Below are positions 6,171 to 19,678 of a DNA stretch of 64,000 nt, one piece after another; the first letter of the stretch is position 1; every line of letters begins with the position of its first letter. A program made the translations under genes and the position numbers. Below the pieces are notes generated by a model. It did no database searches. It saw only the letters and a program-made list of their open reading frames with translations, and was not told where the DNA came from. This stretch comes from Nonomuraea muscovyensis (GTDB lineage Bacteria; Actinomycetota; Actinomycetes; Streptosporangiales; Streptosporangiaceae): contig NZ_JACHJB010000001.1 in assembly GCF_014207745.1 (NCBI RefSeq), forward strand, positions 62,001 to 126,000, read 5' to 3'.

Positions 6171-7469
6171 ATGAATCGAAGACTGACAGGCCTGGCGGCC
6201 GCCGTCGCGGCATCCCTGATCCTCACCGGATGTTCCGACGGGAGCGATCAGCAGCGTGCGGCCGAGCCCGCGAAGAAGACACAGATCTACCTGGTCGACG
6301 GCAACACCACCCAGTACGGCGACGAGTTCACGGCCGGCACGTTCGACGGAGTGAAGGGCGTCATCCCGGGCGGCCGGTCGACCGACGAGTTCCGCGAGCG
6401 GCTGCTGGCCGCCGACCCCCGCCTGAAGGACTTCGCCTACGCGGTGGAGTCGTACGACTCGGTGATCGTCACCGCACTCGCGGCGGAGGCCGCCGAGAGC
6501 GACGGCGCGAAGGCGGTCGCCGCCAGGATGCGGGACGTCTCGAACGCGCCGGGCGAGAAGTGCACCACCTTCGCGGCCTGCTCGAAGCTGCTCAAGGACG
6601 GAGCCGAGATCGACTATGACGGGCTGAGCGGCCCGATCGACCTCAACAGGACCGGCAGCCCGTCGGCCGCCTCCGTCGGCGTCTTCCAGTACGGGAAGGA
6701 CAACACCTACCAGGCCGTCGGCTACGAGACGGGCAAGGCGTCCGCCGACCCCGATCCCCTCCCCGCGCAGGGGATCAGTGGAGCGGGCACCCCCGGCGAC
6801 GGCCGGCTGGTGCTCGGCTCCCTCCTGCCGCAGACCGGTGATCTCTCCTATCTCGGCCCGCCGATGTCGGCCGGGGTCAAGGTGGCCGTCGCCGAGCTGA
6901 ACGACCACGGCGGGGTCCTGGGCGAGGACGTCAAGCTGGTCGCCGGGGACTCCGGTGACGGAACCCCCAACATCGCGCCCCAGGAGACCGACAAGCTCCT
7001 CGACCAGGACGTGGACGTCATCGTCGGCACGGCCTCGTCGAGCGTCTCCCTCAGCGTCCTCGACAAGATCGTGAACGCGGGAGTCCTCAACATCTCACCC
7101 TCGGTGACGTCCCCGGAGTTCGACACCTTCCCCGACAAGGGGCTCTTCTTCCGCCTGATGCAGTCGGACGCGCTGCAGGGCGGTGTGCTCGCCAACACGA
7201 TGTCGAACGACGGCTACACCGACATCGCGATCCTCGTCCGGCAGGACGCGTGGGGACAGGGCCTCGCGGCGGGCATCAAGGCGTCGTTCGAGGAGTCGGG
7301 AGGCAACGTCGTCGCCACCCGCTTCTACGCCCCGGACTCGGGCGGATTCACCGCCGAGGTGAACGCCGTCAAGGCGGCCGATCCGGACGCCATCGCACTC
7401 GTCGGGTTCGACGAGACCAAGAAGATCGTGCCCGAGCTGATCAAGGCCGGTCTCTGGATGGGTCGGTAG
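6171..7469 (+). CDS. livJ: Branched-chain-type ABC substrate-binding lipoprotein with circularly permuted domain order
   Basis: 432 residues. A lipoprotein signal peptide is clear (MNRR start, hydrophobic stretch, lipobox LTGC with Cys21). What follows is odd. Residues ~37-190 (from QIYLVDGN through DYDGLSG and FQYGKDN) are what I know as the C-terminal part of this actinobacterial Leu/Ile/Val-type binding-protein family. An ~18-residue Pro/Gly-rich linker (191-208) follows. Residues 209-432 (from GDGRLVLGSLLPQTGDLSYLG to IVPELIKAGL) are the usual N-terminal half. The halves are swapped while the signal peptide stays first, and the frame is intact. The canonical break would lie between IKAGL and QIYLVDGN. 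The protein should still form both lobes and bind ligand outside the membrane. It is the first gene of the liv-nba region. The ATG at 6171 is chosen because it opens the signal peptide; the frame is open further upstream to 6039. Confidence 0.93.
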   Translation: MNRRLTGLAAAVAASLILTGCSDGSDQQRAAEPAKKTQIYLVDGNTTQYGDEFTAGTFDGVKGVIPGGRSTDEFRERLLAADPRLKDFAYAVESYDSVIVTALAAEAAESDGAKAVAARMRDVSNAPGEKCTTFAACSKLLKDGAEIDYDGLSGPIDLNRTGSPSAASVGVFQYGKDNTYQAVGYETGKASADPDPLPAQGISGAGTPGDGRLVLGSLLPQTGDLSYLGPPMSAGVKVAVAELNDHGGVLGEDVKLVAGDSGDGTPNIAPQETDKLLDQDVDVIVGTASSSVSLSVLDKIVNAGVLNISPSVTSPEFDTFPDKGLFFRLMQSDALQGGVLANTMSNDGYTDIAILVRQDAWGQGLAAGIKASFEESGGNVVATRFYAPDSGGFTAEVNAVKAADPDAIALVGFDETKKIVPELIKAGLWMGR

Positions 7470-7482
7470 CACGACCCGCGGT

Positions 7483-7516
7483 GCCGTGCGCCGGAGGCGA
7501 CACCCCGGCGCACGGC
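7483..7516 (+). terminator. Intercistronic stem-loop between livJ and livH
   Basis: Perfect 12-bp inverted repeat (7483-7494 with 7505-7516, 10-nt loop), 13 bp after the binding-protein stop. Hairpins here commonly stabilise the binding-protein mRNA or partly terminate, so that binding protein exceeds permease. The exact function is inference. Confidence 0.6.
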
Positions 7517-7551
7517 CCGGAATCCCCATCTCACCAGCACCTGGAGTTCCC

Positions 7552-8868
7552 GTGCGGTTGCGTCCTGCCCTCTGCCTCGTCCTGCTCGTCGTGGCCCTGT
7601 TCGGCGCCGGCTCCACGGCGGTCGCGGCGGCTTCCACCGTCGGCACGGCCGCGCTCACGGCCCGCGGCGACGACCCCGAGACCGTGAAGGTCACCGGCAA
7701 GCTGGTCAACCGCGACGACACGGGGTCGACGCCGGTCGGCGGCGGCAAGGTGACGGTGACCGGCGCGTCGGGCGCCGAGTACTCCGCCACCAGCCGGCCG
7801 GACGGCGGTTTCTCCGTCGAGGTGCCGTTCGAGGTCGGGCCCCTCTCGATCGAGCTCGACGAGCGATCGCTCCCGGATGGCGTCACCCTGCGCGAGGGCG
7901 GGCGCAATCCGATCACCAGGACGGTCTCGGGGACGCTTCCGCTGACGGTCACCTTCGTCCTGGGCAAGGGCGACCGTCAGACGATGAGCTGGGCCGACCA
8001 GATCCCCCAGAGCCTGTTCAACGGCCTCTACTTCGGCCTGATCATCTCGCTCGGCGCGCTGGGGCTGTCGCTGATCTTCGCCACCACCCGGCTGACGAAC
8101 TTCGCGCACGGCGAGATGGTGACGTTCGGCGCACTCGTGACGTACGCGCTCAACGTGACGGGGATCGACATCTGGCTGGCCGGTCTCCTCGCGGCGGGGC
8201 TGGCCGGCGTGTTCGGGTTCGCGCAGGACCGGTTCTTCTGGCGGCCGATCCGGCGGCGAGGGACCGGCGTCCTCGCCATGATGATCATCTCGATCGGTGT
8301 CCAGTTCATCCTCCGCAACGTCTACCAGTTCTTCACCGGCGGGCGGACCGAGACCTACCGCCAGTACACGACGCCGGAAGGGCACCGGCTCGGCCCGATC
8401 ACGTACTCCGTCCGCGACGTGGTCTGCGTGGCGATCGCGCTGGTGCTGGTCGTCGGTGTGACGATCGCGCTCCGGCGGACCCGGCTCGGGCGGGCGACCC
8501 GGGCGGTGGCCGACAACGCGGCGCTCGCCGCGACGACGGGCATCAACGTCAACCGGGTCATCACGACCGTCTGGTCGGTGGGCGCGCTGCTCGCCGCGAC
8601 GTGCGGCCTGCTCCTCGGCTTCAGCCAGGCCGTGAAGTTCGACCTCGGCGCCCTCCAGCTCCTGGTGATGTTCGCCGCCATCACGGTGGGCGGGCTCGGA
8701 TCCGTGTGGGGAGCCGTCCTCGGCAGCCTGCTCGTGGGCACCCTGATCGAGATGTCGACCCTGGTCATCCCATCCGAGCTCAAGATGGCCGCCGCGCTGT
8801 TCCTGCTCATCGGCGTGCTCCTCGTCCGGCCGCAGGGACTCCTCGGGCGCGCACAGCGCATCGGTTGA
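7552..8868 (+). CDS. livH: LivH-type permease fused to an exported N-terminal beta domain
   Basis: 438 residues. The GTG at 7552 opens a signal peptide (RPALCLVLLVVALFGAGSTAVAAA). Residues ~40-140 look like a carboxypeptidase-regulatory or Ig-like beta domain (VKVTGKLVNRD, GGGKVTVTGASG, PDGGFSVEVPF). The permease proper begins near residue 145 with SLFNGLYFGLIISLGALGLSLIF and has the TTRLTNFAHGEMV motif of LivH proteins. A LivH without the extra domain is ~290-300 residues. The exported domain faces the binding protein and could help docking (inference). It heads the membrane and ATPase genes livHMGF, separated from livJ by a hairpin. Confidence 0.88.
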   Translation: MRLRPALCLVLLVVALFGAGSTAVAAASTVGTAALTARGDDPETVKVTGKLVNRDDTGSTPVGGGKVTVTGASGAEYSATSRPDGGFSVEVPFEVGPLSIELDERSLPDGVTLREGGRNPITRTVSGTLPLTVTFVLGKGDRQTMSWADQIPQSLFNGLYFGLIISLGALGLSLIFATTRLTNFAHGEMVTFGALVTYALNVTGIDIWLAGLLAAGLAGVFGFAQDRFFWRPIRRRGTGVLAMMIISIGVQFILRNVYQFFTGGRTETYRQYTTPEGHRLGPITYSVRDVVCVAIALVLVVGVTIALRRTRLGRATRAVADNAALAATTGINVNRVITTVWSVGALLAATCGLLLGFSQAVKFDLGALQLLVMFAAITVGGLGSVWGAVLGSLLVGTLIEMSTLVIPSELKMAAALFLLIGVLLVRPQGLLGRAQRIG

Positions 8869-8882
8869 TCGAGAGGAACGAC

Positions 8883-9851
8883 ATGGACATCCTGACCAGC
8901 GCCCTCCGGGCGGGCTTCTCCGTCGACGCGGCGTACTTCTGTCTGGCCGCCATCGGGCTCAACGTGCAGTTCGGGTACGCGGGCCTGATCAACTTCGGGC
9001 AGGCGGGGTTCCTCGCCGTCGGCGCGTACGGGTTCGCCGTCGGCTCCGTCGCCCTCGGGCTCCCCTTCTTCGCCGCGATCGGCCTCGGTTTGCTGTGCAG
9101 CATCGCGCTGGGCCTGCTCCTCGGGCTGCCCACCCTGCGGCTGCGCGCGGACTACCTCGCCATCGCGACCATCGCCGCCGCGGAGGTCCTGCGGCTGTTC
9201 TTCGGCGCGGCGTTCCAGGACGTCTTCCACGGACGTGACGGGATCTCCGGCTTCTCGGCGGGCTTCCAGGCGGCCAATCCCTTCGACCAGCCGTTCCTCG
9301 GCTACCGACCGGCCGACCTGTGGGTCATGACGGTGGGCTGGGGGCTGGTCGTGATCGCCAGCGTCGTCGTCTGGTCGATCATGCGCGGGCCGTGGGGCCG
9401 GGTGCTCATGGCGATCCGCGAGGACGAGGAGGCGGTCCGCAGCCTGGGCAAGAACGTCTACGCCTTCAAGATGCAGGCGCTGGCGATCGGCGGCCTCATC
9501 GGCGCTCTGGGCGGGTTCGTCGTCGCGCTGGGCCAGAACTCCGTGCAGCCGGACAACTTCAGCTTCGACCTGACCTTCATCGTGTGCACCATGCTCGTCC
9601 TCGGCGGCGCGGCCCGGATCATGGGCCCGGTCGTGGGCGCGGTCGTCTTCTGGGCGTTCCTGTCCCTGGTCAGCGGGATCCTGGGCGCTCTCACCGCGGG
9701 GCAGGACCCCGTCGTCCCGGCCTGGCTCATGACCGGCGACCAGATCGGCACGGTCAGGTTCGTCCTCGTGGGAGTCGCCCTGGTGCTGTTGATGATCTAT
9801 CGACCTCAAGGAATCTTCGGAGATCGTAAGGAGATGGCGCTCCATGCCTGA
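8883..9851 (+). CDS. livM: LivM-type branched-chain ABC permease
   Basis: 322 residues, very hydrophobic, with about eight to ten membrane segments. Family motifs NVQFGYAGLINFGQAGF (first third), LRADYLAIATIAAAEVLR, and the EAA-like loop REDEEAVRSLGKNVYAFKMQALA are visible. It pairs with LivH to form the channel. The ATG at 8883 follows a GAGAGG-like ribosome site and lies 14 bp after livH; its end overlaps livG by 8 bp. Confidence 0.92.
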   Translation: MDILTSALRAGFSVDAAYFCLAAIGLNVQFGYAGLINFGQAGFLAVGAYGFAVGSVALGLPFFAAIGLGLLCSIALGLLLGLPTLRLRADYLAIATIAAAEVLRLFFGAAFQDVFHGRDGISGFSAGFQAANPFDQPFLGYRPADLWVMTVGWGLVVIASVVVWSIMRGPWGRVLMAIREDEEAVRSLGKNVYAFKMQALAIGGLIGALGGFVVALGQNSVQPDNFSFDLTFIVCTMLVLGGAARIMGPVVGAVVFWAFLSLVSGILGALTAGQDPVVPAWLMTGDQIGTVRFVLVGVALVLLMIYRPQGIFGDRKEMALHA

Positions 9852-10701
9852 CCGCATCCCCTCCGCCGCCCGGTCCGGTCCTGATCCGGCCGTGATCCTC
9901 CGGGCGGAGAACGTGGCACGACGGTTCGGCGGATTCACCGCCGTCGACGTGGACCACCTGGCCGTCCGCCGAGGTGAGATCACCGCGCTGATCGGGCCGA
10001 ACGGGGCGGGCAAGTCCACGTTGTTCAACCTGCTGACCGGATTCGACCGTCCCGACGCCGGCCGGTGGGCCTTCGACGGTCATCCGCTGGCGGGTGTGCC
10101 CGCGCACAAGGTCGCGCGCATGGGCATGGTCCGCACGTTCCAGCTGACGCGAGTCCTGGCCCGCCTGACCGTGCTGGAGAACATGCGCATCGCCGCACCG
10201 GGTCAGCTCGGCGAGCGGCTGTGGGCGGCCCCCTTCAGCCTGGCCTGGCGCAGGGGCGAGAGGGACAACACCGCCCGTGCGCGCGCCCTGCTGTCCCGGT
10301 TCCTGCTGGACGGCAAGCGCGACGAACCGGCGGGCGCGCTGTCCGGCGGGCAGCGGAAACTGCTGGAGATGGCCCGCGCGCTCATGGCGGAGCCGCGGAT
10401 GGTGATGCTCGACGAGCCCATGGCCGGGGTGAACCCGGCGCTCAAGCAGTCTCTGCTCGGGCACATCGTGTCCCTGCGTGACGACGGCGTGAGCGTGCTG
10501 TTCGTCGAGCACGACATGGACATGGTGCACGAGATATCGGACCACGTCGTCGTCATGGCCCAGGGCCGGGTGATCGCCGAGGGCACCGCGCGCGAGGTCA
10601 CGCAGGACGAGCGGGTGGTGAGCGCGTATCTGGGCGAGCGTTTCGGCGACGACCTCGTGGAGACCGGCCCGACGCCGGGCGGCGGGAGCGGCGGCCGATG
10701 A
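9844..10701 (+). CDS. livG: LivG-type ABC ATP-binding protein
   Basis: 285 residues. Walker A is GPNGAGKST, the signature is LSGGQRKLLEMARALM, and Walker B is MVMLDEPMAGVNP. The segment FVEHDMDMVHEISDHVVVMAQG is typical of LivG. The protein is one of two ATPases energising the importer. The start overlaps livM by 8 bp and the end overlaps livF by 4 bp. The last dozen residues are a Gly-rich tail not seen in the core fold. Confidence 0.93.
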   Translation: MPDRIPSAARSGPDPAVILRAENVARRFGGFTAVDVDHLAVRRGEITALIGPNGAGKSTLFNLLTGFDRPDAGRWAFDGHPLAGVPAHKVARMGMVRTFQLTRVLARLTVLENMRIAAPGQLGERLWAAPFSLAWRRGERDNTARARALLSRFLLDGKRDEPAGALSGGQRKLLEMARALMAEPRMVMLDEPMAGVNPALKQSLLGHIVSLRDDGVSVLFVEHDMDMVHEISDHVVVMAQGRVIAEGTAREVTQDERVVSAYLGERFGDDLVETGPTPGGGSGGR

Positions 10702-11432
10702 GCACCACACACGGGTTGCTGGTCGCCGAAGACCTCGTCGCGGGTTACCTGCCGGGCGTCGACATCCTCAAGAAGGCCGGCCTCCGGTGCGACGAGGGGG
10801 AGGTCGTCGGCATCATCGGGCCCAACGGGGCGGGGAAGTCGACCCTGCTCAAGGCGCTGTTCGGGCTGGTGCCGATCCGCAGCGGGGCGGTCCGCCTGCG
10901 TGGCGCGGACATCACCGGCGAGCGCGCCGACTCTCTCGTGGCGCGCGGCGTCGGCTTCGTCCCGCAGACCGGCAACGTCTTCACCGGCCTCACGGTCGAG
11001 GAGAACCTCCAGATGGGCTGCTACCAGGCGCCCGCGACGTTCGCCGAACGGCTGGACGTCGTCGGCGACCTGTTCCCGTCGCTGCTCGACAGGCGGCACC
11101 GCCCGGCCGGCTCGCTGTCCGGCGGGGAACGGCAGATGGTGGCGATGGGCCGCGCGCTCATGATGAACCCCTCGGTGCTCCTGCTCGACGAGCCGTCCGC
11201 CGGTCTCTCGCCGCACATGCAGGACGAGGTGTTCGTCCAGACGAGGAGCGTCAACCGCGCGGGGGTGAGCGTCGTGATCGTCGAGCAGAACGCGCGGCGG
11301 TGCCTGGAGATCTGCGACCGGGGATATGTGCTGGACCAGGGCGCCAACGCCATGACGGCGACGGGCCGGGAGCTCATGCACGATCCCAAGGTCGTCGAGC
11401 TGTACCTCGGAACCCTGGGACGTGACACGTGA
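10698..11432 (+). CDS. livF: LivF-type ABC ATP-binding protein
   Basis: 244 residues. Walker A GPNGAGKST, signature LSGGERQMVAMGRALM, Walker B VLLLDEPSAGLSP, and the VEQNARRCLEICDRGYVLDQG stretch identify LivF. It completes a full LivJHMGF importer. The ATG overlaps the livG stop. The next gene begins 70 bp later beyond an inverted repeat, so the transport and catabolic genes could be one transcript or two. Confidence 0.93.
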   Translation: MSTTHGLLVAEDLVAGYLPGVDILKKAGLRCDEGEVVGIIGPNGAGKSTLLKALFGLVPIRSGAVRLRGADITGERADSLVARGVGFVPQTGNVFTGLTVEENLQMGCYQAPATFAERLDVVGDLFPSLLDRRHRPAGSLSGGERQMVAMGRALMMNPSVLLLDEPSAGLSPHMQDEVFVQTRSVNRAGVSVVIVEQNARRCLEICDRGYVLDQGANAMTATGRELMHDPKVVELYLGTLGRDT

Positions 11433-11502: not shown

Positions 11503-12987
11503 ATGAGCATGACCACAGCGTTCGCGGAGGGCATCGTCCGCAACTTCGTCGACGGCCGGTTCGCCGAGCCCGACACCGGGTCGTTGTTCGACAACGTCGA
11601 TCCCGCCACCGGCCGAGTGGCCGGACGCGTGCACGAGGCCGACGCCGCGCTGGTGGACCGCGCCGTGCGCTCGGCGCGCCGGGCGCTCGCCGGTCCCTGG
11701 TCCTCGTGGACGACGAACGCGCGCACGGCGCTGCTCCGCCGCGCGGCCGACCGGATCGAGGAGCGCTTCGAGGAGTTCGTCGCGGCGGAGGTCCGCGACA
11801 CCGGCAAACCGGTGACGCACGCTCGTGACGTCGACGTGGCCCGCGCCCTCACCAACCTCCGGGCCTTCGCCGACGTCGTGGGATCGGCCGGGCAACCGTC
11901 GTTCCTCACCGAACTGGCGGACGGGCGCCGCGCGCTCAACTACGCGGTCCGCAAGCCGCTGGGCGTCGTCGCGGTCGTGGTCCCGTGGAACCTGCCGCTG
12001 CTGTTGCTGACCTGGAAGGTCGCGCCCGCGCTCGCCTGCGGCAACGCCGTGGTGGTCAAGCCGAGCGAGGAGACGCCCTCGACGGCGACCCTGCTGGCCG
12101 AGGTGCTGCGCGAGGTGGGCCTGCCGGACGGCGTCTACAACGTGGTCCACGGATTCGGCCGGGGCTCCGCGGGCGAGTTCCTCACGACGCACCCCGGCAT
12201 CGACGGCGTGACGTTCACGGGCTCCACGGCGACCGGCTCGCAGGTGATGCGGACCGTCGCGGGACGTGTCCGGCCCGTGTCCTTCGAGCTCGGCGGCAAG
12301 AACGCGGCCGTCGTGTTCGCCGACGCCGATCTGGACACGACGCTGGACGGGCTCAGGCGGTCGATCTTCTCGAACACCGGCCAGGTGTGCCTGTGCACCG
12401 AACGCGTCTACGTCCAGCGCCCGATCTTCGACGACGTGGTCGACGGCCTCGTCGCCCGGGCGAAGGCGCTCACCCTGGGCGACCCGCTCAGCGAGACGAC
12501 GACGACGGGCCCGCTCATCTCCCGGGCCCACCGCGACAAGGTGCTCACCTACTTCGGCCTGGCCCGGGAGGCGGGCGCGACGACCGTCGTCGGCGGCGGC
12601 ATCCCGTCGATGACACCGGACCTCGACGGTGGCTCGTGGATCGAACCCACCCTCTGGGTCGGCCTGGGCCAGGAGGCCCGTCCCATGCGGGACGAGGTGT
12701 TCGGCCCGGTGGCCGGGGTGATCCCGTTCGACTCCGAGGAGGAGGCGATCGCGCTGGCGAACGACACCGACTACGGCCTCGCGTCGTCCGTGTGGACCTC
12801 GGATCTCACCCGCGGCCACCGCGTGGCCCAGGCGATGCGGGTCGGCATGTCCTGGGTCAACACCTGGTTCCTGCGGGACCTGCGCTCCCCGTTCGGCGGC
12901 ATGGGCCTGTCGGGGATCGGCCGCGAGGGCGGCGAGTCCTCGCTCCACTTCTACACCGAACCGACGAATGTGTGCGTGCAACTATGA
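11503..12987 (+). CDS. nbaE: 2-aminomuconic 6-semialdehyde dehydrogenase (aldehyde dehydrogenase family)
   Basis: 494 residues, standard aldehyde dehydrogenase length. The general base is Glu262 (FELGGKN) and the catalytic thiol Cys296 (NTGQVCLCTER), 34 residues apart as usual. It should oxidise 2-aminomuconate semialdehyde to 2-aminomuconate with NAD+. By sequence alone a hydroxymuconic semialdehyde dehydrogenase is equally possible; the downstream deaminase, 3-HAA dioxygenase and ACMS decarboxylase decide for the amino substrate. The ATG at 11503 follows GGCGGTGAG; an ATG at 11482 is an alternative. The stop overlaps the next gene by 4 nt. Confidence 0.88.
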   Translation: MSMTTAFAEGIVRNFVDGRFAEPDTGSLFDNVDPATGRVAGRVHEADAALVDRAVRSARRALAGPWSSWTTNARTALLRRAADRIEERFEEFVAAEVRDTGKPVTHARDVDVARALTNLRAFADVVGSAGQPSFLTELADGRRALNYAVRKPLGVVAVVVPWNLPLLLLTWKVAPALACGNAVVVKPSEETPSTATLLAEVLREVGLPDGVYNVVHGFGRGSAGEFLTTHPGIDGVTFTGSTATGSQVMRTVAGRVRPVSFELGGKNAAVVFADADLDTTLDGLRRSIFSNTGQVCLCTERVYVQRPIFDDVVDGLVARAKALTLGDPLSETTTTGPLISRAHRDKVLTYFGLAREAGATTVVGGGIPSMTPDLDGGSWIEPTLWVGLGQEARPMRDEVFGPVAGVIPFDSEEEAIALANDTDYGLASSVWTSDLTRGHRVAQAMRVGMSWVNTWFLRDLRSPFGGMGLSGIGREGGESSLHFYTEPTNVCVQL

Positions 12988-13775
12988 CGACAACCATCAC
13001 CGCCGCGGCCGAACGGCTGCTCACCGCCGCGAGAGACGGCGTTCCGTGCGCCCCGGTGCGGGACCTGATCGGCGCCGGCGACCTCGACCAGGCGTACGCC
13101 GTCCAGGAGGCCGTCGCCGCCGCGCGCGAGCGGGCCGGATCCCGCGTCGCCGGCTACAAGATCGGCCTGACCACGAGGTCGGTGCAGGAGCAGTTCGGCG
13201 TCTTCGAGCCCGACTTCGGGCTCGTCTTCGACGACATGCTGCATGCCCACGGCAGCGAACTGGACCGCGGCGCCTACCTGCAGCCCCGGGTCGAGGCCGA
13301 GATCGCATTCGTGCTGGAGACCGGCATCGAGACGCCCAGGCCGTCGGTGGCCGACGTGATCCGGGCGACCGGCTTCGTCCTGCCGGCCATCGAGGTCGTG
13401 GACTCGCGGATCGCCGGCTGGGACATCACGATCAGCGACACGATCGCCGACAACGCCTCCAGCGGCGCGGTGGTGCTCGGCACGACCCCGCGGTCCCTTG
13501 ACCGTCTGGAACTCGCGGACGTCAGCATGGTCCTGGAGAAGGACGGCGAGGACGTCTCCTTCGGCTCGGGCGCCGCGTGCATGGGGTCGCCGCTCGTCGC
13601 GGCCACCTGGATCGCGCGCGAACTCGTCCGCCGCGGCCGGCCGCCGCAAGCCGGCGACGTCATCATGACCGGTGCGCTCGGGCCGATGGTCGACGTCGCG
13701 GGCACCGGGCGGTTCACGGCCCGGTTGTCCGGGCTCGGCCAGGTCGAGGTCACCTTCGTCGAGCGGGAGCTGTGA
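12984..13775 (+). CDS. nbaH: 2-oxopent-4-enoate hydratase (2-keto-4-pentenoate hydratase)
   Basis: 263 residues of the MhpD/DmpE hydratase-decarboxylase family. Typical segments are [17 protein letters not shown], the metal-binding ARVEAEIAF-type strand seen here as [13 protein letters not shown], and [12 protein letters not shown] followed by [11 protein letters not shown]. It adds water to 2-oxopent-4-enoate to give 4-hydroxy-2-oxovalerate, using a divalent metal. The paralogous gene at 15744 is assigned the decarboxylase because it sits next to the deaminase gene and has [10 protein letters not shown] in place of [13 protein letters not shown] overlap with the preceding gene. Confidence 0.87.
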
Positions 13776-14731
13776 TGGCCGCGGACCGGAAGGCGGGGGC
13801 CGTCGTCATCGGCTCCGGCAACATCGGGACGGATCTCATGTTCAAGATCGAGCGGCTCTCGAAGCGGCTCTCGATGGCGGCCATGGTCGGCATCGACCCG
13901 GCCTCCGACGGCCTGGCGCGGGCCCGCAGGCGTGGTGTCGCGACCACGGCGGACGGCGTCGACGGGCTCGCCGGGCTGCCCCAGTTCCGCGACGCGGCGG
14001 TGATCTTCGATGCGACGTCCGCCGGGGCGCACGAACGGCATGCCGCGTTCGCGCGGCGGCACGGCAAGCTCATGATCGACCTGACGCCCGCGGCCCTGGG
14101 GCCCTACGCCGTGCCCACGGTCAATCTGGACGAGATGCACTTCGCCGACAACGTGAACATGGTGACGTGCGGCGGCCAGGCGACCATCCCCGTCGTCGCG
14201 GCCGTCGCCGGGGTGGCCCCGGTCGCCTATGCCGAGATCGTCGCCTCGATCGCCTCGCGGTCCGCCGGGCCGGGGACCCGCGCCAACATCGACGAGTTCA
14301 CCGAGACCACCAGCCGCGCGATCGAGTCCGTCGGCGGGGCCGGGGTCGGCAAGGCGATCATCATCCTCAACCCGGCGGATCCCCCCGTCATCATGAGGGA
14401 CACGGTCTACTGCCTGGTGGAGGACGCGGCCGGGCGTGACCGGCTCGACCACGACGCGGTCGCGCGAGCGGTCGCGGACATGGTGGCGCGGGTCCAGGAC
14501 TACGTTCCCGGATACCGGCTCAAGCAGGCCACCCAGTTCGACCGGCTGTCCGGCGTCCACGTCCCCGCGCTCGGCCGCGCGTTCACCGGGACCAGGGTCT
14601 CGGTCTTCCTCGAGGTGTCCGGGGCCGGCCACTACCTGCCCGAGTACGCCGGCAACCTCGACATCATGACCTCGGCCGCGCTGCGGACGGCCGAGCGGAT
14701 TCTGGAACTCCGCGAGGGGGCCAGGCTGTGA
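13775..14731 (+). CDS. nbaJ: Acetaldehyde dehydrogenase (acylating)
   Basis: 318 residues. The N-terminal nucleotide-binding loop is IGSGNIGTD, and the catalytic cysteine is Cys132 in [12 protein letters not shown]. Other family segments are [14 protein letters not shown] and [16 protein letters not shown]. It converts acetaldehyde, CoA and NAD+ to acetyl-CoA, and in this family is channelled acetaldehyde by the aldolase encoded next. The ATG at 13775 shares its A with the preceding TGA; a GTG one codon upstream is possible. Confidence 0.94.
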
Positions 14732-15747
14732 AGCTCTACCTGCAGGACGTGACCCTGCGCGACGGGATGCACGCGATGGGGCACGCGTACTCGACCGAAC
14801 ACGTGCGCCGGATCGCGGCGGCCGTCGACGCGGCCGGGGTCGACGCCGTCGAGGTGGCGCACGGTGACGGCCTCGGCGGTTCGAGCGCGAACTACGGCTT
14901 CGGCGCGCACTCCGATCTCGAATGGATCGAAGCGGCGGCCGAGGTGCTGCGCCACGCCAGGCTCACCACGCTGCTCATCCCCGGGATCGGCACGATCAAG
15001 GACCTGGAGCGGGCGCACCGGCACGGCGTCACCAGCGTCAGGATCGCCACGCACTGCACCGAGGCCGACATCGCGGCCCAGCACATCGACTGGGCGCGGT
15101 CCCACGACATGGACGTCTGCGGGTTCCTCATGCTCAGCCACATGCTCGATCCCGCGCCGCTCGCGGCGCAGGCCGCGCTCATGGAGTCGTACGGCGCCAC
15201 CTGCGTCTACGTCACGGACTCGGGGGGACGCCTGACCGGCCGTGACGTCGCCGCCCGCGTCGACGCCTACCGTGACGTGCTGGACCCGGGGACCGAGATC
15301 GGGATCCACGCGCACGAGAACCTCTCGCTGTCGGTGGCCAACAGCGTGACCGCCGTCGAGCACGGAGCGGTGCGCGTCGACGTGGCGCTGGCCGGGCAGG
15401 GCGCCGGTGCGGGCAACTGCCCCGCGGAGCCCTTCGTGGCGGTCGCCGACCTGCTGGGCTGGGAGCACGGATGCGATCTCTTCGCCCTCCAGGACGCGGC
15501 CGACGACATCGTCCGCCCGCTCCGCCCGCACCCCGTCAGGGTGGACCGCGAGACGCTGACGCTGGGATACGCGGGTGTCTACTCCAGTTTCCTGCTCCAT
15601 GCCGGGCGCGCGGCCGAGAGGCACGGCCTCGACGCGCGCGCCATCCTGATGGAGGCGGGCCGCCGCCGGCTCGTCGGCGGCCAGGAGGACATGATCGCCG
15701 ACGTCGCCCTCGACCTGGTCGCCGCGGCTCGGGAGGAGGTCCGATGA
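14728..15747 (+). CDS. nbaI: 4-hydroxy-2-oxovalerate aldolase
   Basis: 339 residues, a TIM-barrel class II aldolase of the DmpG/BphI type. The N-terminal VTLRDGMHA supplies Arg11 and Asp12, and His194 and His196 in GIHAHEN are the expected Mn2+ ligands. The C-terminal helical communication domain that contacts the dehydrogenase is present ([20 protein letters not shown]). It splits 4-hydroxy-2-oxovalerate into pyruvate and acetaldehyde. GTG start in a GTGA overlap with the dehydrogenase gene. Confidence 0.94.
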
Positions 15748-16571
15748 GCCTTACGGACGGTGAGATCGTCGAGCTCGCGCGGGAGCTGGACGACGCCCAG
15801 ACGTCGGCGCGCGCGGTCACCGGCCGCTCGGCGGGCGAGGACTGGGACGTCTTGAGCGCGTACCGGGTGCAGCGGCACCTCGTGGCACGCCGCCGGTCCC
15901 GTGGCGAACAGCCGATCGGTCTCAAGCTCGGTTTCACGAGCCGGGCGAAGATGCGCCAGATGGGCGTCCACGACGTCATCGTCGGGCAGCTCACCGACGC
16001 GATGGACGTCCCCGACGGCGGTGAGCTGAGCCTCGACGGCCTGATCCAGCCGAGAGTCGAGCCCGAGGTCGCCTTCAGGATCGCCCGGGACGTCGACCTG
16101 GACGACCCGCGGGCCTGCGTCGCGACCGCCGTGGACGCCGTGGCCCCGGCACTGGAGATCATCGACTCGCGCTACCGGGACTTCCGGTTCTCCTACGCGG
16201 ACGTGATCGCCGACAACACCTCCGCGGCGGCGTTCGTGATCGGGCCGTGGGCTCCGGTACGGCCGCTCGACAACCTGGCCGTGCGGATGACCGTCGGACC
16301 CCGGACCGTCTCGACCGGGACGACGGGCGCCATCCTCGGTGATCCGATCCGCGGCCTGCGGCTGCTCGCCGGGATCTGCCGCCGCCACGCGATCCCGGTC
16401 CGCGCGGGCGACGTCGTCCTCGCCGGCGCGGCGACCGCGGCGGTTCCGCTCACCGGGGGCCCGCTGGACGAGGGTCCGCTGATCGAGGGTTTCGTCACCG
16501 CGCAGGTGGCGGACCTGGGCCGGGTGTCCGTGAGGGTGACCCGGGCCCGGAAGGGAGGCGACGCGTCATGA
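15744..16571 (+). CDS. nbaG: 4-oxalocrotonate decarboxylase (2-oxo-3-hexenedioate decarboxylase)
   Basis: 275 residues, same fold as the hydratase at 12984 but distinct in sequence. It has [32 protein letters not shown] and [13 protein letters not shown] followed by [12 protein letters not shown]. It removes CO2 from 4-oxalocrotonate, the product of 2-aminomuconate deamination, giving 2-oxopent-4-enoate; in other pathways it forms a complex with the hydratase. Overlaps both neighbours by 4 nt. Confidence 0.86.
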
Positions 16572-17035
16572 CGAACCGGCACGACGGCAGCCGCACGATC
16601 GACGGGCTCGCCCGTCCCCGTGGCAGGTTCCCGCACGTGAAGGTGGCGGGAGACCTGGTGTTCGTGTCCGGCACCAGCTCGCGACGGCCCGACAACACCT
16701 TCGCCGGAGTCGAGGCCGACGAGCTCGGCACCGCCAGCCTCGACATCCGCGCGCAGACCCGCGCGGTCATCGAGAACATCGAGCGCATCCTCGGCGAGGT
16801 CGGCGCGACCCTGCCGGACGTGCTCCAGGTGACCGCCTACCTCACGTCCATGAACGACTTCGGCGGGTACAACGAGGTCTACGCCGAGTTCTTCGACGAG
16901 AGCGGGCCGACGCGGACGACGGTCGCGGTCCACCAGCTGCCCCACCCGCACCTGCTGATCGAGATGCAGGTCATCGCACGGAACCCGCACTCGCGCCCGC
17001 ACCCGCACCCGACCGACGAAGGAGAACGCTCGTGA
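16568..17035 (+). CDS. nbaF: 2-aminomuconate deaminase (RidA/YjgF family)
   Basis: 155 residues of the RidA fold. Diagnostic pieces are [36 protein letters not shown], and the C-terminal [14 protein letters not shown] where RidA proteins normally carry the ligand-binding Arg-x-Glu region. The family includes the 2-aminomuconate deaminase of nitrobenzoate and aminophenol pathways, and the context fits that activity (release of ammonia to form 4-oxalocrotonate). The last 15 residues are a His/Pro tail encoded by short CGCACC-like repeats. Overlaps the next gene by 4 nt. Confidence 0.86.
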
Positions 17036-17559
17036 CGAACGCGCCCTTCCCCGCTCCGATCAACTTCGCCTCGTGGATCAGTGAGCACGAGCACCTGCTG
17101 AAGCCGCCGGTGAACAACCGGACCATCCAGGTCGGCACGGACTTCATCGTCCAGGTGGTGGGCGGTCCGAACCAGCGGACCGACTTCCACCTCGATCCCT
17201 ACGAGGAGTGGTTCTACCAGATCAAGGGCGACATGCACGTCGATCTCATGACGCCCGACGGCCCGCGGACCGTCCACATCAGGGAGGGCGAGGTGTGGCT
17301 CCTCCCCCGGAACCTGCCGCACTCGCCGCAGCGGCCGCAGGACGGCTCCGTCGGGCTGGTCATCGAGCGGATCCGCGAGGAGGGAACGCTGGAGAAGTTC
17401 CAGTGGTACTGCCCCACCTGCGCCAACCTCGTCCACGAGGTGGAGCTCCAGGTGCGGGACATCGTGGCCGACCTGCCTCCCGTGTTCGAGGAGTTCTACC
17501 GCAGTGAGGACGGGCGCACCTGTGACGCCTGCGGCACCGTGCACCCGGGCAAGGGCTGA
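17032..17559 (+). CDS. nbaC: 3-hydroxyanthranilate 3,4-dioxygenase
   Basis: 175 residues, cupin fold. The Fe(II) ligands are His53 and Glu59 ([11 protein letters not shown]) and His97 (LPHSPQRP). The C-terminal rubredoxin-like metal site of bacterial enzymes is intact: CPTC then CDAC. It opens the ring of 3-hydroxyanthranilate with O2 to 2-amino-3-carboxymuconate semialdehyde. This is the committed step of the pathway and fixes the substrate of the whole operon. GTG start, overlapping the deaminase stop by 4 nt. Confidence 0.95.
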
Positions 17560-17563
17560 GACC

Positions 17564-18559
17564 GTGACCATGAGCGGCTCCGTCGACGTGCACACGCACT
17601 ACGTTCCTCGTGGCTGGCCCGACCTGGGGTCGGTGGACGAGCCCCTGCCCTGGCTGCGCATCGACTCGGAACGCGACGCCATGATCATGATGGGCTCCAA
17701 GGAGTTCCGCGCCATCCGCGACAACTGCTGGGACGCCGAGGTGCGCGTCGGCGAGATGGACGCCGACGGGGTGGACGTCCAGGTCCTCTCGCCGACGCCC
17801 GCCTTCTTCTCCTACGGCCAGTCCCCCGTCCAGGGCGCCAAGATCTCGGCGATCTTCAACGATCTGGCGCTCGACATCTGCGCGCCCGCCCCCGAGCGGC
17901 TCCTGCCGTTCTGCCAGGTGCCGCTCCAGGACCCCGACGCGGCCTGCCGCGAGCTCGAACGGTCGATCGCGAACGGTCATCGCGGGGTCGAGATCGGCAA
18001 CCACGTGGGCGAGCGGGATCTGGACAGCGCGGGGATCGTGACGTTCCTGCAGCACGCGGCCGCGCTGGACGTTCCGGTGTTCGTCCATCCCTGGGACATG
18101 GCGACGTCGACGCGGCTCGACCGGTGGATGGCGCAGTGGCTGACGGGGATGCCCGCCGAGACGCACCTGTCGATCCTCGCCCTGATCCTCGGCGGCGTGT
18201 TCGACCGGATCGATCCCGGCCTGCGGATCTGCTTCGCTCATGGGGGCGGCTCGTTCGCCTTCTGGGTCGGGCGCATGGACAACGCGTGGCATCAACGCCA
18301 CGACGTCATCGGGACGTCGGAGCATCCGCCGTCGCACTACCTCGGCCGCTTCTACACCGACTCGGTGGTCTTCGACCACCGGGCGCTGCGGTTACTGGTG
18401 GACACGATCGGCGCCGACCGGGTGCTGCTCGGCAGCGACTACCCCTATCCCCTGGGCGAACGCCCGGCCGGCCGCGTGGTGCGTACGAGTCCCCACCTCG
18501 GGGAGGCCGAACGCCGGGCGATCCTCCGCGGGAACGCCGAGACGTTCCTGGGCCTGTGA
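17564..18559 (+). CDS. nbaD: 2-amino-3-carboxymuconate-6-semialdehyde decarboxylase (ACMSD)
   Basis: 331 residues, amidohydrolase-superfamily barrel. The N-terminal metal pair is VDVHTHYVP, followed by a central VFVHPWD and HGGGSFAFWVGRMDNAW with the YTDSVVFD segment, and the C-terminal LLGSDYPYPLGE holds the catalytic aspartate. It removes the carboxylate from the ring-cleavage product, directing flux to 2-aminomuconate semialdehyde rather than to quinolinate. GTG 17564 is preferred (AAGGG at proper spacing); ATG 17570 is the alternative. Last gene of the operon; the LysR gene converges on it 22 bp away. Confidence 0.93.
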   Translation: MTMSGSVDVHTHYVPRGWPDLGSVDEPLPWLRIDSERDAMIMMGSKEFRAIRDNCWDAEVRVGEMDADGVDVQVLSPTPAFFSYGQSPVQGAKISAIFNDLALDICAPAPERLLPFCQVPLQDPDAACRELERSIANGHRGVEIGNHVGERDLDSAGIVTFLQHAAALDVPVFVHPWDMATSTRLDRWMAQWLTGMPAETHLSILALILGGVFDRIDPGLRICFAHGGGSFAFWVGRMDNAWHQRHDVIGTSEHPPSHYLGRFYTDSVVFDHRALRLLVDTIGADRVLLGSDYPYPLGERPAGRVVRTSPHLGEAERRAILRGNAETFLGL

Positions 18560-18581: not shown

Positions 18582-19592
18582 TCACAGGGCCGGGGCCGGT
18601 CCGGCGGGCGGCAGGCCGGCGGGTGGCAAGGCGGCAGGCGGCAGGTCGGCGGAGGGCAGGTCGGCAGGCGACAGGGAGAGGTCGCGGGCCGTGCGGCGGA
18701 GAATGTCGATCAACGCGGTCGTCGCGGGGTTGAGGCGGCGGTCGGCCTGCAGCGTCAGCCCGACGCTGTGCCCGATGCGCTTCAGCGAGATGGGCAGCGT
18801 CGAGATCCGCGGATCCTCGCGGGCGATGAGCTCCGGCATCACCGCGATGTTGTGGGTCTCGACGAGAAGCTGCCGCACGGTGAGGAACGAGGTCGTCTCC
18901 ACCCTGTTCTGCGGGAGCTCGAACCCGTTCTCCAGGAAGTACGTCTCCAGCTCGCGCCGGAGCACCGTCTCGACCCCGGGCAGGATCCACGGATATCCCG
19001 CGAGGTCCTCCAGCCGGACATCCGGCCGCCGGGCCAGCGGGTGCTGCGCGCCGACCACGACCCGTACCGACTCCTGGTACAGCGTGCGGCGCACCAGCCT
19101 TTCGTCCGACGGCGAGGTGAGCCGGCCGACGATCACGTCGAGCCGCCCCGACTCCAGCTCGGCGAGCAGCATGTCCGTCCCGCCCTCGCGCACCACCACG
19201 GTGACCAGCGGGCGTTCGGCCTTGAGCGCGGCGATCGCCCGGGGGATCAGCAGGTTGGACCCGGTCAGGTGGGTCCCCACGACCACGGTCCCGCGTTCCG
19301 CCTCGGCGATCTCGGCGATATGGCGTGCGGCCTGGGAAAGCTGTGAGAGCACGGCGCGCGCGTGCGCCGTGAAGGCGACACCGAAGTCGGTGGGGGTGAG
19401 GCCGCGTGGACCCCGTTCGTAGAGGGCGACGCCCAGGACCTGTTCGAGGTCCTGCAGGCTGCGCGTGACCACGGGCTGGGTGACGTGCAGCTCTCTGGCG
19501 GCGCCGATCACGGTGCCCTGCGTGCTCAGCACGTCGACCAGGACGAGGTGGCGCAGCTTGAGCCGCCCGTCGAGCAGCTTGGGGATGTGCAT
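18582..19592 (-). CDS. nbaR: LysR-family regulator, PcaQ/GbpR-like (candidate NbaR)
   Basis: About 336 residues. The N-terminal winged helix is LRHLVLVDVLSTQGTVIGAARELHVTQPVVTRSL cut into its two helices, followed by a periplasmic-binding-like effector domain (VVVGTHLTGSNLLIPRAI, LPISLKRIGHSVGL). It flanks the 3-hydroxyanthranilate operon on the opposite strand, as expected for the pathway regulator. An ATG eight codons upstream (19616) is possible; neither start has a clear ribosome site. The C-terminal ~30 residues are outside the fold: five-residue units of the form P-P-A-x-L repeated about six times. Confidence 0.85.
   Translation of the reverse strand: MHIPKLLDGRLKLRHLVLVDVLSTQGTVIGAARELHVTQPVVTRSLQDLEQVLGVALYERGPRGLTPTDFGVAFTAHARAVLSQLSQAARHIAEIAEAERGTVVVGTHLTGSNLLIPRAIAALKAERPLVTVVVREGGTDMLLAELESGRLDVIVGRLTSPSDERLVRRTLYQESVRVVVGAQHPLARRPDVRLEDLAGYPWILPGVETVLRRELETYFLENGFELPQNRVETTSFLTVRQLLVETHNIAVMPELIAREDPRISTLPISLKRIGHSVGLTLQADRRLNPATTALIDILRRTARDLSLSPADLPSADLPPAALPPAGLPPAGPAPAL
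18585..18671. repeat. 15-bp tandem repeat encoding the LysR C-terminal tail
   Basis: Six imperfect 15-bp units (last one 12 bp) that translate to SPADL, PSADL, PPAAL, PPAGL, PPAGP, APAL and run straight into the stop codon. The unit length is a multiple of three, so copy-number change would keep the frame. Confidence 0.75.
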
Positions 19593-19678
19593 GCGCACGA
19601 TGGTAGCCCTGGGCATGCCCTAGCTGACATATCGCCAGGCGAAGACAGTTGTTTTCGGCTATAGCAAGGAGAGGTGCG

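Follow-up and report, generated by a model that had tools for sequence, protein, structure and literature searches.

The window analysed here, a 64,000-nucleotide stretch of the Nonomuraea muscovyensis genome, carries at positions 6171–7469 of the plus strand a gene for a 432-residue lipoprotein of the Liv-type substrate-binding protein (SBP) class (HAAT; Pfam Peripla_BP_6), whose translation runs from the canonical C-terminal half, through a linker, to the canonical N-terminal half. The genes of a LivHMGF transporter lie next to it, and the pathway genes downstream of these bear out the earlier remark that the SBP heads a cluster for aromatic catabolism (Table 1). The ATG is preceded by GGAG, 8 nt upstream, and the N-terminus MN[RK]xLTGL is conserved together with Cys21 in the closest relatives, both of which support the assigned start. 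Cys21, within the lipobox LTGC, is moreover invariant in eight permuted homologues, and from this sequence motif the protein is predicted to be secreted or lipid-anchored.

Table 1. Features of the SBP gene and of the transporter and catabolic genes that follow it in the window
Feature	Position	Strand	Basis
Signal peptide, lipobox LTGC (Cys21), residues 1–21	6171..6233	+	Translation; Cys21 invariance; GGAG
Short spacer behind the lipid-bearing Cys, residues 22–36	6234..6278	+	Length and sequence variable among homologues
Canonical C-terminal part of Liv-type SBP, residues 37–190, placed first	6279..6740	+	Half-profiles; BLAST against canonical relatives
Linker from old C-terminus to old N-terminus, residues 191–208	6741..6794	+	Homologue comparison
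Canonical N-terminal part of Liv-type SBP, residues 209–432, placed last	6795..7466	+	Pfam Peripla_BP_6; half-profiles
Stop codon of the permuted SBP gene	7467–7469	+	
LivH-type permease, extracytoplasmic N-terminal extension of ~166 aa	7486..8868	+	Pfam BPD_transp_2, 177–445
LivM-type permease	8883..9851	+	Pfam BPD_transp_2
LivG-type ATPase	9844..10701	+	ORF and order; conserved neighbours
LivF-type ATPase	10698..11432	+	ORF and order; conserved neighbours
2-Hydroxymuconic/2-aminomuconic semialdehyde dehydrogenase	11503..12987	+	TIGR03216, 764.6 bits, above cut-off of 693
2-Oxopent-4-enoate hydratase-like	12990..13775	+	NF008461/TIGR03220, below cut-off
Acetaldehyde dehydrogenase (acetylating)	13772..14731	+	TIGR03215, above cut-off
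4-Hydroxy-2-oxovalerate aldolase	14728..15747	+	TIGR03217, above cut-off
2-Oxo-3-hexenedioate decarboxylase-like	15744..16571	+	TIGR03218, below cut-off
Rid-family protein, candidate 2-aminomuconate deaminase	16568..17035	+	TIGR00004, below cut-off; role suggested by pathway
3-Hydroxyanthranilate 3,4-dioxygenase	17032..17559	+	TIGR03037, 219 bits, above cut-off; Pfam 3-HAO
Amidohydrolase, candidate 2-amino-3-carboxymuconate semialdehyde decarboxylase (ACMSD)	17567..18559	+	Pfam Amidohydro_2; role suggested by neighbours
LysR-type regulator, putatively of the cluster	18582..19616	−	Best NCBIfam match PcaQ-like, below cut-off

The Pfam profile Peripla_BP_6 matches only residues 215–428 (profile positions 4–215 of 343, E 7e-36), as expected if the remainder of the fold is placed in front. 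The protein ends in IVPELIKAGLWMGR, just before the KxYxVDGN position, and resumes at the other end, behind the spacer, with QIYLVDGN; canonical relatives read ...IVPELxKQGIGPxKxKxYFVDGN... at this point, and hence pass into that strand exactly where the preliminary description had placed the cut. The same is apparent within the genome itself, where a paralogue of ordinary order, encoded on the same contig (G000:C1:413441-414697, minus strand), which is ~48–49% identical to the permuted protein, matches query residues 193–428 first and residues 32–212 afterwards. Canonical homologues align with the protein only as two swapped blocks, not end to end. Both parts thus show homology to the Liv/HAAT family over the whole fold; since the C-terminal part precedes the N-terminal one, the reverse of the canonical order, the product is to be filed as a permuted variant rather than as a plain member, and its description as a genuine, complete and in-frame circular permutation stands. 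Among the first loci collected, 76 ORFs had the canonical order and 10 the permuted one, duplicates included.

The arrangement characterises a lineage and is no isolated peculiarity. Co-linear permuted homologues were found in ~30 other actinobacterial genomes, nearly all with a LivHMGF set alongside. Matches over residues 1–432 reach 91% identity in N. roseoviolacea and 88% in both Microtetraspora sp. NBRC 13810 and another genus of the family, while identity is 53–54% in four further Nonomuraea genomes and ~50% in Nocardioides insulae. When genomes were sampled with a profile built from eight permuted proteins, the permuted form was matched over its full length in 11 of 395 genomes of the class and in 16 of 246 of the family to which N. 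insulae belongs, with additional matches in the phylum; the window's own genome is counted in the class and phylum samples. When the halves were scored separately, the C-terminal part preceded the N-terminal part in 33 distinct proteins, all of them ending within a few residues of one point. In a plasmid collection, no permuted homologue over most of the query was evident; the two records that did cover most of it consisted of multi-piece matches of ~49% identity, in which the order of the pieces was not read. Two distant permuted SBPs of ~35% identity (L157 in G404 and L158 in G496) have no LivHMGF genes within 4–14 kb.

That the order results from a sequencing or assembly error, misassembly being the caveat raised initially, or from the chance joining of two half genes, has a negligible probability, given that the identical order and junctions recur in genomes that were sequenced independently and represent several genera and families, that the linker is conserved and that dN/dS is ~0.25 across the gene. 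The gene might instead be a decaying or inactive fusion hitch-hiking in the operon, and in the closest pairs the C-terminal half does evolve somewhat faster than the N-terminal half (dN/dS 0.22–0.46 versus 0.09–0.20), and the branch of the window's clade is long (0.59). However, dN/dS over the gene is 0.21–0.25 among the four closest orthologues and below 1 in both halves, which denotes purifying selection on each of them, frame and lipobox are intact in all homologues read, conservation extends to ~50% identity with Nocardioides, and its transporter cluster encodes no SBP besides it. Decay is, accordingly, very unlikely.

In its native order, the sequence gave an AlphaFold2 model with a pLDDT of 86.2 and a pTM of 0.86 (90.4 and 0.89 for a canonical control), low confidence being found mainly in the signal, the spacer and the last residues, with linker blocks at ~69–74. 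The model contains the elements of the control in rotated order: its first strand corresponds to control residues 227–231, and its last helix to residues 209–218. The model is a confident one and would be of the two-lobed type I kind; as many or most rows of its input alignment were separate canonical half-fragments, the pairing information between the halves was partly lost. In sequential structure alignments, the canonical model was matched over its entire length (3td9, Z 39.0, 335 residues) and the permuted model only over residues 210–432 (4n0q, Z 17.0, 219 residues), the C-terminal part being left unaligned because the aligners are sequential. The mature fold and the binding mode should be unchanged with respect to the canonical form. 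We take the cut site to lie in lobe 2, going by the known boundaries of the LivJ lobes, and, from the topology, the linker would form an extra crossing between the lobes near the hinge.

A second breakpoint was found in SBPs from five genomes of the same phylum, outside the window's class (L190–L194, in G1146, G1163, G966, G1050 and G1108), which are permuted ~25 residues downstream of the window's cut. These proteins start, after the signal, with LxGMKGT... or an equivalent, end with ...GIGPKVIKVYGCDGNMGNGLGKAFDAGE or an equivalent, and hence retain the strand YxxDGN at the C-terminus. They also adjoin LivHMGF genes.

The number of origins was addressed with trees built on reordered sequences, in which the window's clade comprised 16 representatives, with support of 97/92 in one tree and 70/87 in another. 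Its nearest relatives are canonical Nocardioidaceae proteins, with which it forms a group supported at 100/100. The first trees, both rooted and unrooted, resolved the main permuted clade only in part; two others recovered it, and its monophyly was not rejected in an earlier set (p 0.386). Forcing all permuted forms together cost 70.6 log-likelihood units and was rejected (p-AU 0.0004), as it was in the set lacking the outgroup and the second-breakpoint forms (p 0.0013); the other permuted groups may form one clade with the second-breakpoint forms (p 0.374). Linkers tell a similar story, those of the whole main clade having 15–18 residues and mostly the motif Q-[EK]-[IV]-[ST]-G, and those of the other permuted groups having a different sequence and mostly a different length. 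The rejection of a single origin and the differing linkers point to at least two origins, possibly more; together with the cut ~25 residues further on, that rejection suggests that permutation recurred at two adjacent lobe-2 sites. Within this family, the permutation appears to have occurred on more than one occasion. A single permutation in the ancestor of all permuted forms, with the canonical order regained in some descendants, finds some backing in the identical position of the window's type of cut in three distinct groups, in a reversal through a second duplication being conceivable, and in the canonical protein L045, which adjoins permuted group 2 in the tree and is a loose end for the origin count. 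Nevertheless, besides the likelihood loss, the differing linkers and the second cut, it is opposed by the basal position of the canonical order when the tree is rooted on a distant canonical paralogue, a rooting with weak deepest branches and a very long outgroup branch, and we regard it as improbable.

As for the route leading to such proteins, the preliminary description had proposed tandem duplication followed by loss of the outer halves. Seven Nonomuraea loci (L174–L180, e.g., G018:C1:3918000-3926500) carry two or three tandem canonical SBP genes within ~8 kb, the first two being almost directly adjacent. Such copies are the substrate that this route requires, which makes it plausible; the intermediate (N-C-N-C) was not found among the permuted loci and homologues examined, and no remnants of lost halves were found around the permuted genes. 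Fused tandem SBPs, to which long open frames at some canonical hits had seemed to point, were rejected, as these loci hold separate canonical genes in tandem. In three other proteins (L195, 428..; L196, 377..; L197, 681.. on the minus strand), a canonical Liv-type domain is fused to the end of N-terminal domains that are followed by a putative membrane-spanning segment; the N-terminal part resembles, by eye, a SARP-like regulator in L195 and another cytoplasmic-looking domain in L196 and L197, and these proteins are candidate one-component sensors.

Turning to the partners of the permuted SBP, cognate LivHMGF genes are adjacent to it in the window and lie beside nearly all permuted relatives. 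The gene is downstream of co-directional HMGF genes in other Nonomuraea and convergent with them in Nocardioidaceae and others, in both cases with no second close SBP. This arrangement, adjacent LivHMGF genes and no second close SBP, makes the permuted SBP the likely receptor of that importer. The N-terminal extension of LivH (window 7486–7983, ~166 aa) gave no Pfam match; similar ones are common in actinobacterial LivH proteins adjoining canonical SBPs, and the idea that it might be specific to permuted systems was rejected, since canonical systems carry comparable extensions.

The catabolic gene set of the window corresponds to the route that passes through 2-aminomuconate and converts 3-hydroxyanthranilate into acetyl-CoA and pyruvate. 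The whole operon order, SBP-H-M-G-F followed by the 3-hydroxyanthranilate genes, is conserved in four genomes of three genera, the window sharing it with N. roseoviolacea, Microtetraspora and a third genus (L142, L143 and L144). Because the importer heads an operon for 3-hydroxyanthranilate degradation, 3-hydroxyanthranilate itself or a closely related aromatic acid is, judging solely from the gene neighbourhood, the most likely ligand in the window's lineage. This neighbourhood might nonetheless mislead, the cargo being a branched-chain amino acid, a peptide-like compound or another aromatic acid. Most permuted relatives adjoin LivHMGF alone, no aromatic-pathway genes being seen beside permuted SBPs outside the window's clade within the stretch searched, and the structural matches are binders of leucine, benzoates and urea alike. 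Set against the retention of the SBP-H-M-G-F order and the full 3-hydroxyanthranilate gene set in those four genomes, such another cargo is a serious prospect, although it falls short of an even chance.

All these observations could be integrated in the following model, which, taken as a whole, we hold to be very probable. The 6171–7469 product would be a functional Liv/HAAT (type I) binding lipoprotein and a natural circular permutant, in which the old C- and N-termini are joined via the ~18-residue linker and the new termini are situated in lobe 2, after the final helix of the N-terminal part and ahead of the KxYxVDGN strand. As a consequence of this topology, lobe 2 rather than lobe 1 would carry the lipid anchor, and the linker would be an additional lobe crossing near the hinge. 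The protein would hand its ligand, putatively 3-hydroxyanthranilate or a close aromatic acid in the window's lineage, to the LivHMGF importer encoded alongside. The gene would most likely have originated when a canonical SBP gene was duplicated in tandem, the copies fused and the outer halves were lost. Events of this kind would have taken place two or more times in Actinomycetota, in one case with the cut slightly displaced. It is conceivable, although somewhat less likely than not, that one SBP family has been repeatedly and independently permuted at two neighbouring sites flanking one lobe-2 strand because there is an advantage in having the tether on lobe 2 and no longer on lobe 1; if so, the shift could alter the docking of the receptor on the permease, or which lobe moves freely.

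With the canonical Actinomycetota Liv/HAAT SBPs, such as the ordinary-order paralogue mentioned above, the permuted form shares homology in both halves (~48–56% identity), the lipoprotein nature and a place beside, or a role in serving, LivHMGF permeases and ATPases, but in the canonical proteins the halves are unswapped, and the permuted form adds a linker of 15–18 residues between the old ends. Likewise, each part has the same fold as in Escherichia coli LivJ/LivK and solved relatives (2liv, 4gnr, 4n0q and 3ipc), with which a canonical relative can be aligned over its full length (Z up to 39), unlike the permuted model. Permutation also relates members of the type II fold, to which the glycine-betaine-binding proteins, the molybdate-binding proteins and CysB belong. 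The relationship of the former to the latter two through circular permutation has been described (PMC2395249) for very distant sequences, whereas that of the permuted Liv-type proteins is plain at the sequence level within one subfamily.

The closest precedent comes from Treponema pallidum: TpMglB-2 (Tp0684) is a permuted type I SBP for which its authors propose the designation ‘Type Ic’ (‘Cluster Bc’), which binds glucose and still closes on its ligand, and which has homologues in other treponemes and in many Gram-positive bacteria (PMC4990184). In this protein, the first three strands of the N-lobe are relocated to the C-terminus, and the moved part retains only 13% identity (PMC4990184). 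Both proteins are natural type I SBP permutants, lipoproteins and receptors, presumptively so in our case, of ABC importers, and the extra lobe crossing near the hinge shown in TpMglB-2 would have its counterpart in the permuted Liv-type SBP. However, TpMglB-2 belongs to the sugar-binding (MglB) subfamily and the 6171–7469 product to Peripla_BP_6; the cut follows N-lobe strand 3 in the former, and in the latter it falls ~224 residues into the fold, in front of the lobe-2 strand KxYxVDGN; and, instead of the 13% identity of the moved part, both parts of the latter are ~50% identical to canonical relatives. The protein thus shares with ‘Type Ic / Cluster Bc’ the permutation of a type I SBP, but neither the strand-3 cut nor the MglB-like sequence. 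The preliminary statement that no natural permuted LivJ was known consequently holds for the Liv/HAAT subfamily, no report of a permuted LivJ/HAAT protein having been found in the open-licence literature, and needs qualification for type I SBPs at large, one permutant having already been reported (PMC4990184). We judge the permuted Liv/HAAT form to be a further variety of permuted type I SBP, as its subfamily, cut, close canonical relatives and repeated origin differ from those of the one permuted type I SBP report found. Since canonical-order profiles report permuted SBPs as half-matches, they are easily mis-annotated. Natural circular permutants with canonical relatives still ~50% identical are uncommon, and here there are dozens, in several apparently independent groups; as permuted groups and tandem canonical copies occur in the same lineages, both the duplication route and the effect of the anchor position can be tested directly with matched pairs.
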